A stretch of 22,601 nucleotides of DNA, taken from positions 1 to 22,601 of the IMG/VR virus record IMGVR_UViG_3300044643_000642. One strand, written 5' to 3'. Under the pieces are notes generated by a model. That model searched no databases. It saw only the letters and a program-made list of their open reading frames with translations, and had not been told where the DNA came from. Shown here piece by piece: positions 15,752 through 22,249 of this stretch. The stretch's first letter is position 1. Each line of letters begins with the position of its first letter. Both the position numbers and the translations under genes were made by a program. Source of the stretch: a virus.

Positions 15752-16227
15752 AGCGTGCCCCCAGCACAGCGACATTTGCCGCTGAAGTGGTACGGCTGTT
15801 TGAGCGGATTCCCTTGCTCGTCCACCATGCCCTGCACCCGCACCCACTTCGTGACGCGGATTTCTCCACCTGCGCACCGCGCCGGGTGATGGATCTTTTC
15901 CAGCCCGCGAGAGTTGGGATCGTAGTCCCAGTAGGTCAACCCTGGAATCTCGCGCCCGCACCCGCCCGTATTTGCCCTAGGAGCTTCGTTTACCGGCTGC
16001 CCATGCTTCGCCTCGTTCAGCGCGTCCGCGATGTCTTGCGGCCCCGTTGGAAGCGATTTTCGGCCCAGTATGAGATCCACCGCCGCCCGAGCGTGCGCCG
16101 CATCGTCGGAATGACTGGCGAGCACGTCGATAAGCGAGGTGAACGTCTCCGGCGCCATGAAGCCGAACCCCTGGAGATTCGACATGCGATTGAGCTGGGC
16201 GGTGGCCGTACCGCGGTTACACGGCAT
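15748..16227 (-). CDS. Unrecognised protein in the lambda gene P position
   Basis: The protein has 159 residues and starts inside the last codons of the replication initiator (11-base overlap), with GGAGG six bases before the ATG. The first 90 residues are helical (FTSLIDVLASHSDDAAHARAAV, then LILGRKSLPTGPQDIADALNEA). The C-terminal half has four cysteines (GGCGRE, ARCAGG and CRC near the end) that could bind a metal. The order initiator then this gene recalls lambda O-P, where P loads the host helicase, but I see no similarity to P or DnaC and no Walker motif. A role in replication is inference from position only. Confidence 0.65.
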   Translation of the reverse strand: MPCNRGTATAQLNRMSNLQGFGFMAPETFTSLIDVLASHSDDAAHARAAVDLILGRKSLPTGPQDIADALNEAKHGQPVNEAPRANTGGCGREIPGLTYWDYDPNSRGLEKIHHPARCAGGEIRVTKWVRVQGMVDEQGNPLKQPYHFSGKCRCAGGTL

Positions 16228-17335
16228 CGTCCACCTCCAGCCCGGCCTTCAAGTCCACCGGCCCAAACCGCCGCGGCGCCCGCGGTGCCGATGGTATTTG
16301 GTCATGTTTGCCGTCCCTTGTCCACCATTGCGCCTCTTTCGGCTTCAAATCGGCGTTGGTGTCGTAGGCGATGCGCCACTTCCGCACGGCTGCCGTATAA
16401 GCAAGGCAGAATGCCGCCGCGCTCCAGTCGTATTTCGGGCCAGAGTTCTGGAACTGCATACGCATCGCCGCCAGTGTCATGCCGACATCGCCGCCGGCTG
16501 GCAGGTGCTCACATGCGAATTTCGCCGCGGTCTGGAAAAGCTCGTCTGGTTCAGGTCCGTTGTCGTCGATGCGGAGTTGCTGCGGCGGGGGCGGGGCGGG
16601 CGTCAGCGCGCCATTCCCCCTTCCCCCTTCCACATTCCACATTCTACATTCCACATTCATACCGGGAACCCCCCCTATCATAGAGGCAAATCCTGGGGAA
16701 CTTTGGGGAAATTGTCTATGATCGGCCAATGATAGGCCGTTTCCCCAGGATTCCCCGGGATTTGCCCCTATCATTGACGTATCATCAAGCGTTTCCCCAG
16801 GATTCCCCGGGGAACTTTGGGGAACTTTGGGGAAATCGTCTATGATCGGCTTATCATTGGCCGATGATAGGCCCAAATCCTGGGGAATCCTGGGGAATCC
16901 TGGGGAACTTTGGGGAATCGGCCTATCATTGACGTATGATAGAGGCAATTCCTGGGGAATCCTGGGATTTTGCTCTATCATCGGCCTATCATTGATTTGG
17001 CCTGATGGCGGCGGGTACTCGCTGTCCGGGTCCTTATAGTGCGGCCGCTGGTGCTTCAGGAAGTTCACGCACTGGATTACCTCGACCGATCCAACCGCAT
17101 AAAGGACGATCAGCCCGGCGTCGTGGAGGTCGTGAACCCACTGCGCGACGTCTTCCACGGTCGCCGGATCGAAGCCAAAGGCGTACTTTTTGAGCCGCGT
17201 CGGGCGGTACTCCAGGCGGCCTTCTTTGTCCGCCAGCGTCCACATGGCGATCCACAGGAGGCGCTGCGGGTAGCCGACTTTTGCCGGGTCGTCGCTCTCG
17301 AAAAACCCCGGCTTGATGTTACGGGCGCGCGGCAT
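16217..17335 (-). CDS. Replication initiator protein (lambda gpO-like architecture)
   Basis: The protein has 372 residues and starts at an ATG with AAGGAGG seven bases upstream (17342-17348). Residues 5-97 look like a winged helix: PQRLLWIAMWTLADKEGRLEY, then KKYAFGFDPATVEDVAQWVHDL and LIVLYAVGSVEVIQCVNF, as in many phage replication initiators. Residues about 112-226 form a Pro/Ser/Gly-rich linker with imperfect internal repeats (PQSSPG four times), encoded by the iteron block. The C-terminus (about 255-372) is a helical domain (AAKFACEHLPAGGDVGMTLAAM, KYDWSAAAFCLAYTAAVRKW). This layout, DNA-binding domain, origin-coding linker, interaction domain, mirrors lambda gpO. It probably binds the repeats and recruits the host replisome. 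The gene overlaps the glycosyltransferase gene by 17 bases. Confidence 0.77.
   Translation of the reverse strand: MPRARNIKPGFFESDDPAKVGYPQRLLWIAMWTLADKEGRLEYRPTRLKKYAFGFDPATVEDVAQWVHDLHDAGLIVLYAVGSVEVIQCVNFLKHQRPHYKDPDSEYPPPSGQINDRPMIEQNPRIPQELPLSYVNDRPIPQSSPGFPRIPQDLGLSSANDKPIIDDFPKVPQSSPGNPGETLDDTSMIGANPGESWGNGLSLADHRQFPQSSPGFASMIGGVPGMNVECRMWNVEGGRGNGALTPAPPPPQQLRIDDNGPEPDELFQTAAKFACEHLPAGGDVGMTLAAMRMQFQNSGPKYDWSAAAFCLAYTAAVRKWRIAYDTNADLKPKEAQWWTRDGKHDQIPSAPRAPRRFGPVDLKAGLEVDDAV
16628..16655. repeat. Tandem heptamer repeat (TTCCACA)
   Basis: Four head-to-tail heptamers (TTCCACA, TTCCACA, TTCTACA, TTCCACA) lie next to the iteron block, still within the initiator gene. On the coding strand they read NVE-CRM-WNVE. 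They differ in sequence and period from the decamers, so they are probably a separate short tandem repeat. They sit in the protein linker, where extra residues would be tolerated. Confidence 0.85.
16675..16994. repeat. Candidate replication origin: decamer iterons alternating with palindromic 20-mers
   Basis: Two repeat types alternate inside the initiator gene. Type 1 is the decamer TCCTGGGGAA or CTTTGGGGAA, in head-to-tail groups: 16691 and 16701; 16805, 16815, 16825; 16878, 16888, 16898, 16908; 16950 and (degenerate) 16960. It is inverted at 16741, 16751, 16793 and 16803. Type 2 is a 20-mer CTATCAT-N6-ATGATAG: perfect at 16923-16942, near-perfect at 16716-16735 and 16851-16870, degenerate at 16768-16787. 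Extra half-sites lie at 16675, 16840, 16975 and 16986. Gaps between the two types are nearly always 5 or 7 bases. This is what an initiator-bound origin would look like. Confidence 0.75.
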
Positions 17336-18188
17336 CTTTCGCCTCCTTTTGCACTTTGGTTAGCGTCATGCCGTATTCGTCTTGACGGCCCACCGGGGTT
17401 AAGCCATCGCGCTCAATGAGCCGGTTCGACTTGAACCCCGAGTAATCGACTTCGTGGTGCCAGCGGTCGAACTTCCACGCCACCTTTGCCACGTCTGGGT
17501 GATTGCGTACTAGGCTCTCGGCGAACTCTAGACGGTGGTCGGACGTGGCGTACACTGTATCCGTGTTCCCGCCCTTCATCGTCATAGTTGTTACCTTGTC
17601 AGCTAAGAAGGCATTGAATTGGATCGTGCACCAGCCATCTTTTAGAGCCCGCAAGCACAAGTCCGTGTCCTCGTTGTAGCGCCCGCGCCAGCGATATGGC
17701 ATCGCATTATTGAGCAAGGAAATGGAGTAGATGCGGGTATTTAGATCAAACGGTGCCGCGTTCGGGTTGCGGTCGGGAGCGAAGGCGATATTGTTAAACC
17801 CTGAGAGGGCGACGTTAGTAAAGCGATCCGTAAAGTCTTCCGCCGCCGCAAATATAGCCGCGCTCCAGCATGGAACGCGGCGGTTGAAGTTCATGCGGTA
17901 AAACCGCACAATATTGTCGTCAATGATCCAGTGGCGTTGATGGCCTTGCTCAATAGAGTGTTCCCAAATCCAATTACGAGCCGGGATGGAGCCTTGCCCA
18001 AGGTTGGAGAACGGCAAAATTAAGAGCGTTGCTTGCCGTGGGATCACCTTTCGGTATTCGTCCTCATCTTCTGGCTCGATTACCACGTTGAACGGTATTC
18101 CCATTTCGGTTAACCGCTGAATGGTGAGTGGTCGAAACGCCCGCCCCTTAGACGGGATATAAATGGGGTAACGCGGCCTACGGCTCAT
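17319..18188 (-). CDS. TET-associated glycosyltransferase (TAGT)-like protein
   Basis: The protein has 289 residues. The ATG at 18188 has GGAGG seven bases upstream and is preferred over an in-frame start ten codons earlier. Motifs match the phage TAGT family: YIPSKGR (10-16), VVIEPEDEDEY (35-45), LPFSNLGQGSIPARNW (58-73), the acidic WIIDDN (87-92, likely metal and nucleotide-sugar binding), WRGRYNEDTDLCLRALKDGW (167-186) and MKGGNT (204-209). In phages these enzymes are linked to sugar transfer onto oxidised or hydroxymethylated bases made by TET/JBP enzymes. No TET/JBP dioxygenase or C5-cytosine methyltransferase is visible in this window, so the partner would lie outside or the substrate differs. 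It is followed by the replication initiator. Confidence 0.83.
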   Translation of the reverse strand: MSRRPRYPIYIPSKGRAFRPLTIQRLTEMGIPFNVVIEPEDEDEYRKVIPRQATLLILPFSNLGQGSIPARNWIWEHSIEQGHQRHWIIDDNIVRFYRMNFNRRVPCWSAAIFAAAEDFTDRFTNVALSGFNNIAFAPDRNPNAAPFDLNTRIYSISLLNNAMPYRWRGRYNEDTDLCLRALKDGWCTIQFNAFLADKVTTMTMKGGNTDTVYATSDHRLEFAESLVRNHPDVAKVAWKFDRWHHEVDYSGFKSNRLIERDGLTPVGRQDEYGMTLTKVQKEAKDAARP

Positions 18189-18459
18189 CGACGTACCTCC
18201 ACTCCGACGGCTTTGCAAGGTCTTCCGGCGGAAAAGTGAGTGTGTCTGTTTTTGTCGTCACTCGCGCCCCTAAAACCTCGCCAAATCGTGTTAGGTCATC
18301 AATGGAGTAAAAGTTGACCGTCACGCGATACAACGGGCGCGCATCGCCCATATCGAAGGAAGGCATACCCCACCACAAATCCGACCATTTAGGCTCATTG
18401 GCAAATAGCGCGTCTTGTTGGTTTTCGCGCGTTCGCCGCTTCAATCGTTGAATATCCAT
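18178..18459 (-). CDS. Small conserved-looking phage protein next to the glycosyltransferase
   Basis: The protein has 93 residues, with a basic N-terminus and then SDLWWGMPSFD, a strand YRVTVNFYSIDDLTRFGEVLG and RVTTKTDTLTFPPED. The pattern W-GMP-F, V-F-s-dD--F----G, T-KT---FP is one I associate with a common small phage protein often found by genes of this glycosyltransferase type, but I cannot name its function. It overlaps the glycosyltransferase by 11 bases and has a GAGGGAG ribosome binding site close to its ATG. A role in the same modification step is a guess from the gene pairing. Confidence 0.65.
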   Translation of the reverse strand: MDIQRLKRRTRENQQDALFANEPKWSDLWWGMPSFDMGDARPLYRVTVNFYSIDDLTRFGEVLGARVTTKTDTLTFPPEDLAKPSEWRYVDEP

Positions 18460-18498
18460 TGCTCCCTCTTTCCGGCCGCGTCGGCATAGCGGCCCCGT

Positions 18499-18672
18499 CT
18501 ACTTCGCCCGCATCAGCCGCTTGAGCACGGCCGCCTGATTCCTGCCCGCCCGCCCATCGCTAGGCGTCTTCGCTATCACGTAGCGCCGTCCGTTCGGCAA
18601 GCGCCACACCTGATGATTCTTCTGGCGCACCAGCACGGCGCCGGCGCGCTTGAGTTGTTCGAGGATGGTCAT
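18499..18672 (-). CDS. HicA-like small protein without a HicB partner
   Basis: The protein has 57 residues, starting MTILEQLKRAGAVLVRQKNH. The ATG overlaps the RusA stop by four bases, which sets the start. The order (L..L...G....RQK.H.....P.GR...V...P..G....Q...VLK.L) is that of the small dsRNA-binding-fold HicA family, with His20 where HicA has its catalytic His. HicA toxins are normally paired with HicB, which is not seen on either side. In a phage early operon an orphan HicA-like protein may be a nucleic-acid binding or host-takeover factor rather than a toxin. Confidence 0.65.
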   Translation of the reverse strand: MTILEQLKRAGAVLVRQKNHQVWRLPNGRRYVIAKTPSDGRAGRNQAAVLKRLMRAK

Positions 18673-19752: not shown

Positions 19753-19900
19753 CGCGCGCCTCCTGCTCCATCAAAAACTCCTCCGCGAACCAGTCACCCA
19801 TGCCCAACTCCGCCAGCGGGTGCCCGTCCTTAATGTATCGCGCCGCCGCTTCGCGCTGCTCGCGCTGGGCGGTGGCGATGGGATTGTCAGTCGATGGCAT
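19730..19900 (-). CDS. Small acidic helical protein, 56 residues
   Basis: This small gene starts MPSTDNPIATAQREQREAAA and ends RIQCV. It has a complete AAGGAGG eight bases before the ATG (19909-19915) and overlaps the methyltransferase end by 14 bases and the following gene start by 23. It is mostly helical and charged: an N-terminal QREQREAAARYIKDGHPLAEL part and an acidic GDWFAEEFLMEQEA part. I recognise no family. The ribosome binding site and the way it bridges two genes support it. Confidence 0.6.
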   Translation of the reverse strand: MPSTDNPIATAQREQREAAARYIKDGHPLAELGMGDWFAEEFLMEQEARDARIQCV

Positions 19901-20879
19901 CGAATAGCCCTCCTTGAGCGCCGGCGTATGCCTCCGCGCTCTCCAGGTGCTTTACAGCCGTCGAAAAGTAACCCGGCTTGAGTTCGATCCCGATGAACTT
20001 GCGGCCCTCGTCCAGCGCGACGAATCCCTCTGAGCCGACGCCAGCGAACGGCGACAATACGACATCTCCGGGCGAGGACCACAGCTCCACGCAGCGCCGG
20101 ATCAGTCCGAGCTGTAGCGGGCAGATGTGTTTCTCGTCCTTTTCGTCGCGGGCGATGCGGAAGTTGAGTACATCGGTTTGGTCGATGTCCCACCAAACCG
20201 GCTCCGCGTACCGCCGCCAAATCTCAACGCTCGTCCGCCCGTCGCGGCCTTTGCGGGCGTATTTCGAAGGGTGCTGGTCGGTTTCGCGCGGATCTTGCGC
20301 CGGGTCGCCAATGTATCGAGTAAAGCCCGTCGGCCGCTCAATCGGCTTCGTGCTGAGATTGTCACCTGGGGGCGTCTTGCGGAACGCCAGCACATAGTCC
20401 GCCATGCCCTGCCGAATCTGCGAAGAGTCGCGCATAACGGTCTTGTGCAAGAGCCCGTTGTTGTTGGTCCGTTCCCGCTCCGTCACCGGGCACTTCCACA
20501 CCGTAACCCGGCTATGGAACGTCCACCCGGCGCGCTCCATGGCGGCGATGCACTGACCTGGGAAGTCCCGCAAGCCGCTGGCGCCGTCGCTGTTCCGATA
20601 CGTCGGCAGGTCTTTGACGTGCATCACGCACAGCCGCCCAGTCGTCGTCACGCGAAGTAGTTCAGGCGCAAGGAATCCGAAGTGCGCAAAGAACTCCTCG
20701 TCGCTGGCGCAGTTGCCCATATCGGCCTCGGAGTCTGAGTACATGTACAGGCTGGAAAACGGCGGCGAAAACACCGTCAGGTCTACCGATTCATCGGGAA
20801 TGCCCTTGATGACTTCGCAGCAGTCGCCGTTGTAGAGCGCCCAGTTGCGGCCGTGCCGCTCGTCTAAAATCACGTTCAT
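19887..20879 (-). CDS. DNA methyltransferase (N4-cytosine / N6-adenine type, SPPF motif)
   Basis: The protein has 330 residues. I use the ATG at 20879 (TAATG overlap with the helicase stop, AGGTGG five bases before). Catalytic motif IV is SPPF at 38-41, preceded by the N-terminal WALYNGDCCEVIKGIPDESVDLTVF. The SAM-binding motif I is near the C-terminus (SPFAGVGSEGFVALDEGRKFIGIEL, about 276-300). Catalytic motif before SAM motif is the beta-class order. SPPF/SPPY is commoner in N4-cytosine enzymes, but the target base cannot be decided. It may protect phage DNA from host restriction. Translation coupling to an SNF2-type helicase suggests that both act in one process on phage DNA. Confidence 0.88.
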   Translation of the reverse strand: MNVILDERHGRNWALYNGDCCEVIKGIPDESVDLTVFSPPFSSLYMYSDSEADMGNCASDEEFFAHFGFLAPELLRVTTTGRLCVMHVKDLPTYRNSDGASGLRDFPGQCIAAMERAGWTFHSRVTVWKCPVTERERTNNNGLLHKTVMRDSSQIRQGMADYVLAFRKTPPGDNLSTKPIERPTGFTRYIGDPAQDPRETDQHPSKYARKGRDGRTSVEIWRRYAEPVWWDIDQTDVLNFRIARDEKDEKHICPLQLGLIRRCVELWSSPGDVVLSPFAGVGSEGFVALDEGRKFIGIELKPGYFSTAVKHLESAEAYAGAQGGLFDAID

Positions 20880-22249
20880 TAGATCCACCTCGGAAGATTC
20901 ATTTGCTTTGTGCCGACGGCCGATGCAAGCTGGCGCCGCCCGGTCCCGTTTTGAATTGCCGCCATCGCTTGAACCATGGCCGCTTTCATTTCTTCGTGCT
21001 TCTTTTGCTTTTCGCGGATCGTCTTGAGGACAGGGCCTTCCGTCTCCGCGATGACCATGTAGGCGTCAACCGGCCGCGTTTGCCCGAACCGCCAGGACCG
21101 GCGCACGGCCTGATAGAACTGTTCGTAGGAATAGGACAGGCCGCAAAAAATGTGACGGTTGCAGTGCTGCCAGTTCATGCCAAAACCAGCGATTGACGGC
21201 TTCGTGACGATGCGCTGGAACGCGCCGTTCGTGAACCCAAGTAGCTTTTCTTCCTTCGCCTCTGTGCGCTCATCGCCGCGTACTTCGATGGCTCCGTCGA
21301 TCACGCGCATCAGTTCGTCGGCCTCGTAGTTGGTGTTGCACCAGATACACCACGGCTCTTTCGAGTTGCCGATGATCTCGGCAACGCGAGCCGCCCGCGC
21401 CGGCGCCGTCAGCCGCATCTCCCGATGCAGTCCCGTCGCCGATACGTCCGCCACCCGGAACAGTTGGCCGTTGGCGTTGATGGATTGATCGACGGAGACG
21501 ATCTCCTCGTGAATATTCAGCGCTGGCATCACCCATCCGTCATCGGAACAACCAAGGTCTGACGGCTTTTCCATGCACACCGACCACGAGGCCACCCACC
21601 GCCAGTAGTCCGCCTCTGCGTGGCCTTTCAGCCGGTACCCGCCCGCCTTCATGGTGTCGTTCAGGAACCACCGCATGAGCATTTGCGCGCCGCTCATGAT
21701 GTCCAAAAACTCCGAGTGGTTGCCTAGCTCCATGTGATCGTTTGGCGACGGCGTAGCCGAGCAACACAGCCTATAGGGCGTGCTCGCAAACGAGTCTTGC
21801 AGTAGCCGCCGAGTTGCCCCGGTAAAGTTTTTAAGGATGCTCGACTCGTCCAATACAATGGCCTTAAAATGGCCCGCGTCGAAGTGCTTGAGCATGTCGT
21901 AGTTGGCAACATTCACGCCCCGGCGCACGTCCTTTTGACTTCGGCATTGCGTGATCTCAACGCCGAACTTCGCGCCCTCAGCTACGGTTTGCGCGGTGAC
22001 GGCTAACGGCGCCAATATCAGCGCATCACCGCCCGTATGCTGGCAGACCTGCCGCGCCCATTCCGCTTGCATGGCGGTTTTGCCGCTGCCGCACTCCGTG
22101 AATAGTGCGAACTTGCCAGCGTTCAGAGCCCGCGTGATGCTCTGCTTTTGGAAGCCGAAGAGTTTGCTGTTCAGGTCGAACTCTCCGGAAATGCCGGATG
22201 GTTGCGGCTGAACGTGCTTGCCGTCAAGAAACGCCCGGTAGCCGCTCAC
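20879..22249 (-). CDS. SNF2/DEAD-like superfamily 2 helicase
   Basis: The protein has 456 residues. It starts at GTG (22249), overlapping the upstream stop (GTGA). Motifs in order: FGFQKQSITRAL (Q-like, 31-42), Walker A TECGSGKTA (51-59), motif Ia LILAPLAV, Walker B-like LDESSILKN (133-141), motif III CSATPSPND (163-171), then a C-terminal helicase half with WCNTNYEADELM, GFGMNWQHCNRHIF and motif VI QAVRRSWRFGQTRP (380-393). The SWRFGQT form of motif VI is typical of SNF2 proteins. SNF2-like phage helicases are thought to remodel protein-DNA complexes or help replication. The tight coupling to a methyltransferase is the best clue to its role. Confidence 0.9.
   Translation of the reverse strand: MSGYRAFLDGKHVQPQPSGISGEFDLNSKLFGFQKQSITRALNAGKFALFTECGSGKTAMQAEWARQVCQHTGGDALILAPLAVTAQTVAEGAKFGVEITQCRSQKDVRRGVNVANYDMLKHFDAGHFKAIVLDESSILKNFTGATRRLLQDSFASTPYRLCCSATPSPNDHMELGNHSEFLDIMSGAQMLMRWFLNDTMKAGGYRLKGHAEADYWRWVASWSVCMEKPSDLGCSDDGWVMPALNIHEEIVSVDQSINANGQLFRVADVSATGLHREMRLTAPARAARVAEIIGNSKEPWCIWCNTNYEADELMRVIDGAIEVRGDERTEAKEEKLLGFTNGAFQRIVTKPSIAGFGMNWQHCNRHIFCGLSYSYEQFYQAVRRSWRFGQTRPVDAYMVIAETEGPVLKTIREKQKKHEEMKAAMVQAMAAIQNGTGRRQLASAVGTKQMNLPRWI

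Follow-up and report, generated by a model that had tools for sequence, protein, structure and literature searches.

The 22,601-nt window analyzed here, taken from a virus record, carries a dense array of short repeats within the coding sequence of a predicted replication initiator, which raises the question of what these repeats are for and whether they act as DNA or through the peptide that they encode. We conclude that the array is very probably an intragenic replication origin in the initiator linker, of the lambda O/RepA_N kind and with a grammar of two or three tiers, a reading drawn from sequence comparison. The 22.6-kb window also encodes a terminase (PF05876/PF20454) that resembles those of many tailed phages at less than 60% identity. 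The habitat of the phage is presumably freshwater, which is our reading of the metagenome numbers of related records. A TET-associated glycosyltransferase gene (PF20691, E 5e-43; 17319-18218, minus strand) overlaps the start of the initiator gene, and a DNA methylase is encoded at 19887-20888. Glycosylated modified bases may be present in the phage DNA and could influence how the initiator binds.

Residues 1-119 of the initiator match PHROG replication-initiation families, with the best matches to phrog_16167 (E 1.2e-32) and phrog_12556 (1.6e-30), and tblastn with the initiator matched 169 phage records. The protein has no Pfam match at E 0.1, including none to the RepA_N domain PF06970, and no NCBIfam match; searching the PDB by sequence gave nothing convincing, and an Rfam search returned no match. 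The model of the full-length initiator was poor overall (mean pLDDT 47.6) and served for domain borders only, with the linker predicted to be disordered (pLDDT <50 at residues 95-259). Structural comparison of the N-terminal domain by Foldseek and VIA placed it near the N-terminal domains of pSK41-type Rep (4pql/4pt7/5kbj) and of DnaD (2v79/2vn2), all of them weak fold matches with no Foldseek E below 1e-3. Against 4pql_A the Foldseek E was 5.9e-3 and the VIA Z score was 8.0 (rmsd 3.1 over 87 residues), and other winged helices score alike. The C-terminal domain belongs to no known family in Pfam or NCBIfam, and a search for it in GTDB genomes gave no relatives.

The repeats of the array are genuine and well beyond what chance would produce. 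The initiator gene contains 16 GGGGAA/TTCCCC cores (mean of 1.24 and maximum of 7 in codon-shuffled versions) and 11 CTATSAT/ATSATAG half-sites (shuffled mean 0.17, maximum 3), and the rest of the window (~21.5 kb) contains zero such half-sites. A previous sequence-only reading described fifteen decamer units alternating with 20-bp CTATCAT-N6-ATGATAG palindromes. The decamers and their 10-bp period were confirmed, with 14 exact cores at 16695-16954, a further degenerate unit and a step of 10 bp inside each group. The 7-6-7 palindrome had to be given up as the elementary unit, as one perfect copy is present, the other blocks are imperfect or direct repeats, and all blocks reduce to an odd 9-bp palindrome, CTATSATAG, with 11 sites at two or fewer mismatches and a background of 0.2 per 351 bp. 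The palindromes are therefore better read as CTATSATAG sites with centres 11 bp apart. The 7-6-7 inverted repeat and the 11-bp direct repeat are equivalent, since both amount to two CTATSATAG sites one turn apart. The distances of 52, 72, 72 and 52 bp previously given between palindromes are correct if the central block is taken as the double element at 16840-16870. Neighbouring CTATSATAG centres are 11, 41, 61 or 72 bp apart, near multiples of ~10.3 bp; this spacing, together with that of the decamers, places the entire array near one helical face. The exact 7-6-7 palindrome was also tried as a collection-wide probe and rejected as not specific, many other contigs being among the matches listed.

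Table. Features of the initiator gene, its motif array and the adjoining heptamer tract, in window coordinates.
Feature	Position	Strand	Basis
Initiator gene, 372 aa, carrying the array	16217..17335	-	ORF, PHROG match
C-terminal domain, ~residues 252-372, presumed replisome-recruiting	16217..16582	-	three predicted helices 263-326, block pLDDT ~54-74
Heptamer tract, 6.7 copies at 7 bp, candidate unwinding element	16612..16658	-	TRF
Motif array in linker codons, presumed initiator-binding part of the origin	16675..16994	-	low pS, disordered in protein model
CTATSATAG site, exact (CTATCATAG)	16675..16683	.	site scan
Two decamers (ATCCTGGGGA, ACTTTGGGGA)	16690..16710	+	
CTATSATAG pair, centres 16720 and 16731, 11 bp apart	16716..16735	.	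site scan
Two decamers, TTCCCC cores on the plus strand at 16741 and 16751	16741..16761	-	
CTATSATAG site, centre 16772, then a degenerate copy at 11 bp (GTATCATCA)	16768..16787	.	site scan for the first; copy has 3 mismatches, under the scan cut-off, and was read from the sequence
Two decamers, TTCCCC cores on the plus strand at 16793 and 16803	16793..16808	-	
Three decamers (GGGGAACTTT), 10-bp period, head to head with the 16793..16808 group	16809..16834	+	
Triple CTATSATAG, centres 16844, 16855 and 16866 (11 + 11 bp)	16840..16870	.	site scan
Four decamers (AATCCTGGGG), 10-bp period	16876..16919	+	
CTATSATAG pair, centres 16927 and 16938; sole perfect CTATCAT-N6-ATGATAG palindrome	16923..16942	.	
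One decamer and one degenerate decamer	16949..16968	+	
CTATSATAG pair, centres 16979 and 16990, direct orientation	16975..16994	.	
N-terminal winged-helix domain, residues 1-105, presumed DNA-binding	17021..17335	-	AlphaFold2 model, mean pLDDT 91.2

Directly downstream of the array in the gene, and just outside the interval that the sequence-only reading had assigned to it, is a tract of heptamers whose TRF unit is CATTCCA on the plus strand and TGGAATG on the coding strand. This tract contains the 40-mer with the highest AT content in 16600-16680 (42.5% GC at 16621), which falls within the lowest 1.8% of 40-mers in a window of 60.6% GC; the tract itself is only moderately AT-rich. The tract is strictly spaced and kept in the mapped clade members, and it is also kept in relatives that have a different N-domain and array. 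The sequence CATTCCACATTC occurs at one place per genome in six of seven related records. No DnaB_C or IstB (DnaC-like) genes were found in the seven related records, which may be fragments.

Approximately 40 relatives were found in viral contigs, with 31 distinct initiator sequences. Spacing proved rigid across 25 distinct relatives, with whole blocks gained or lost in frame. Within the clade the step is fixed at 11 bp for sites, 10 bp for decamers and 7 bp for heptamers; the joins measure 12 and 18 bp, and the first heptamer follows the last site at 23 bp. Initiator relatives without any such repeats, which would speak against an origin, were absent among close relatives. In 16 sequences of the same architecture, pS was 0.241 in the N-domain, 0.067 in the array, 0.053 in the heptamer tract and 0.335 in the C-domain, with pN/pS of 0.08, 0.88, 0.26 and 0.17, respectively. 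Synonymous diversity is thus 3.6-5-fold lower in the array and heptamers, and inside the array diversity is three times less at motif positions than in spacers (0.031 vs 0.092). Because pS in the array is low while its protein is nearly unconstrained, selection acts on the DNA. Recent common ancestry of the array does not fit, as it would also reduce pN, which is not reduced.

Comparison with relatives (L007-L046) suggests that the window array arose by recombination between two types of array present in its clade. Its left part resembles that of the 1044-bp type and its right part that of the 1002-bp type, as if the two had been joined, and the mirror symmetry about 16855 claimed for the window, which is broken in relatives, would then be a by-product of this join. 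In one relative (L040, 6001-6989) the initiator gene is frameshifted after the array, and the part before the frameshift is intact.

More distant relatives separate the domains of the protein. The C-domains of L042 and L213 are 83% and 70% identical to that of the window, and the heptamer tract is also common to them, whereas in the N-domain the identity drops to 47% and 43% and their array letters differ (AGCCGGGTAATTACCCGGCT with CCATATATGG in L042, AGCCGCGCCTAGGTACGGCT with CCATGG in L213). This pattern suggests that N-domain and array were exchanged as a cassette between the window clade and these relatives, with the C-domain kept. CTATSATAG sites and TTGGGG units, together with a heptamer tract of TGATACC, accompany an unrelated C-domain in L396. 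The idea that a GATTCC core of the decamers is itself the CTGATTCC element of the wider family was weakened, since decamers are found in both orientations and some units have no such core, and since L396 combines window-like motifs with a separate heptamer tract.

The wider family is defined by the N-domain (MARxRNIKP...KHQxPH winged helix, phrog_16167 group), and the window N-domain is 42-53% identical to 52 aligned members. A Pfam search over 53 family N-domains gave one match only, which was spurious. Confirmed family loci number at least 229 in genomes and at least 547 viral, and they include initiators across phyla; in annotated phages the initiators adjoin DnaC-like loaders and DnaB helicases. 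We compared 108 distinct initiators from GTDB genomes and viral contigs. In 74 of them, AATCAG (CTGATT) is found three or more times after the N-domain, against 11.6 for the top 6-mer (a different one) of the shuffled control. Between the N-domain and the class-2 array of 77 family genes, direct 6-mer repeats at exactly 11 bp number 208 (2.2 expected), with further peaks at 22, 33 and 44 bp. The 11-bp-type spacing is absent from the N- and C-domain coding regions, where one 34-bp peak was seen in the N-domain. With 16 further genes included, lineage-specific iterons phased at 10/11 bp follow the N-domain in 93 of 124 members, and are usually followed in turn by a one-strand, 7-bp-phased CTGATTCC array. 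Iterons are shared by ~8% of pairs whose N-domain identity is below 55% and by 53-83% of pairs above 70%, a trend that is confounded, being partly due to common descent.

The heptamers of the family are strongly oriented, with a TGATTC strand bias of 293:19 and spacings mostly of 7, 14, 15, 8 and 21 bp; they are read in two frames and have near-invariant codons for an LIPDS peptide. Their sense is opposed to that of the window clade: GGAATCA (TGATTCC) of the family is opposite to coding, whereas GGAATGT is on the coding strand in the window clade. From the period, the position and five of the seven letters, we hypothesize that GGAATGT is the counterpart of GGAATCA on the opposite strand. The sequence-only reading knew of no described origin with exactly this two-motif grammar. 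The letters of the window do appear to be private to its clade, whereas the grammar itself, 11-bp iterons plus a 7-bp heptamer tract, appears to be common to this large family. In five loci related to Firmicutes phages (L354, L371, L401, L273 and L269), CCTATTACC/CCTATCACC or GATTACCTATTACCTACTACC tracts replace CTGATTCC, and the initiator ORFs of L295 and L267 contain an HNH-endonuclease-like sequence after the N-domain, recognized by eye in the linker DNA.

When the CTGATTCC array was sought by a blind pattern scan, 120 loci emerged, at least 97 of which are in initiators of the phrog_16167-group family (84 by an automatic rule and 13 by reading translations). Among the 23 exceptions, the CTGATTCC array is in most cases immediately preceded by iteron-like repeats. 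L475 and L446 carry CTGATTCC arrays with no recognizable family initiator nearby in the contig. At L415, L433 and L428, iterons and a CTGATTCC array occur without a long same-strand ORF and the initiator gene starts ~2.3 kb downstream, suggesting that the origin can lie outside the initiator gene. The existence of the two-part element without a covering same-strand ORF is a strong argument that it works as DNA.

DNA-level constraint could also be explained by an operator, bound by the initiator or another phage regulator and controlling its own gene or neighbours, with no origin present. Phased direct and inverted sites are typical of operators too, and the fold of the N-domain is near that of many repressors. 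We consider this unlikely, since a search of 16000-18600 with the sigma-70 consensus gave no promoter-like site, the element is deep in the gene and joined to the heptamer tract, and it recurs in initiators across phyla with the lambda O and RepA_N origin layout. A partition (centromere-like) or packaging site, bound by an initiator-like or other protein, is very unlikely: in annotated phages the family neighbours DnaC-like loaders and DnaB helicases, its PHROG label is replication initiation, none of the ten window proteins scanned is a partition ATPase or GTPase, and the terminase genes are elsewhere. The resemblance that favours it is to winged-helix proteins such as TubR, which bind iterons and, in the case of TubR, appear among the weak fold matches. 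Slightly less probable still is that function lies in a large hairpin or cruciform formed by the inverted blocks, for example a recombination site or a single-strand origin. While the window array does fold as single-stranded DNA (z = -9.1), long inverted arms occur only in arrays with reversed decamer blocks, and the commoner 1044-bp type, which has no reversed decamers in its array, folds less strongly (z = -4.7). That the repeats serve the peptide, as a disordered linker grown by slippage or recombination with no DNA function, agrees with the predicted disorder and in-frame block variation of the linker but is largely refuted by protected synonymous sites beside free amino acids, by decamers in both orientations that encode unrelated peptides, by family heptamers at 7 bp that span two reading frames, and by two-part elements with no long same-strand ORF over them.

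An intragenic origin is thus strongly supported by synonymous constraint, conserved phasing, family recurrence, domain-motif exchange and non-coding copies. Of the original proposal, the location in the initiator gene, the regular spacing and the presence of at least two motif classes stand; the palindrome unit, the mirror symmetry and the end at 16675 do not, the last because the heptamer tract beyond it is under the same DNA-level constraint. By analogy with lambda O and pSK41 Rep, we infer that the N-terminal winged helix would bind the helically phased CTATSATAG sites at 11-bp intervals, with the GGGGAA decamers (10 bp apart) probably a second contact for the N-domain. The two motifs may be recognized by two proteins or by two domains of the initiator, as the sequence-only reading proposed. 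Bound initiator copies would line up on one DNA face, the complex would open the DNA at the heptamer tract, and the C-terminal domain would bring in the host helicase or primase. More tentatively, the one-strand 7-bp-phased tract (CTGATTCC; GGAATGT or TATTACC-like elsewhere) may be a distinct origin element, namely a strand-specific unwinding or helicase-loading code, DnaA-trio-like with a 7-base step, common to phages whose bacterial hosts span several phyla despite differing iterons and C-domains.

The heptamer or an equivalent phage origin was not found in the open-access literature, and a description in a subscription journal is possible. The array rule places the predicted origin within ~300 bp across a very large family of phages and prophages, on whose origins no studies were found. 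Natural swaps of a DNA-binding domain and the repeat array that matches it offer material on how a winged helix reads DNA, and the widespread CTGATTCC heptamers pose a testable question: what recognizes them?

Among annotated phages, members of phrog_16167, 12556, 2149 and 1408 (F10, HK639, JBD44, Louie and others) have the same N-domain, with linker repeats after it. CTGATTCC is present in many of those inspected, and their iteron letters differ from those of the window, in whose clade decamers and GGAATGT heptamers take the place of CTGATTCC. In lambda O, initiator-binding iterons are found mid-gene between the DNA-binding and replisome-recruiting domains, the adjacent region is unwound, and iteron number varies between relatives, altering the linker (PMC7466680). 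The window repeats are likewise inside the initiator gene between its domains. Lambda has four to six iterons, 19-bp imperfect inverted repeats, beside an AT-rich tract, whereas the window combines 9-bp sites spaced at 11 bp with distinct 10-bp decamers and a tract of 7-bp heptamers, and its initiator is not of the lambda O models, as it has no Pfam family match. The pSK41-type Rep has a winged-helix N-terminal domain, boxes inside rep, a dispensable linker peptide and a separate C-terminal domain, and no heptamer tract is described in the passages cited (PMC5703833). The window differs from RepA_N in having no RepA_N Pfam match, weak fold similarity and different boxes. In pPR9 the N-terminal domain and origin were exchanged as one cassette while the C-terminal domain is >97% identical (PMC5703833), and this pSK41/pPR9 exchange parallels that between the window and L042 and L213.
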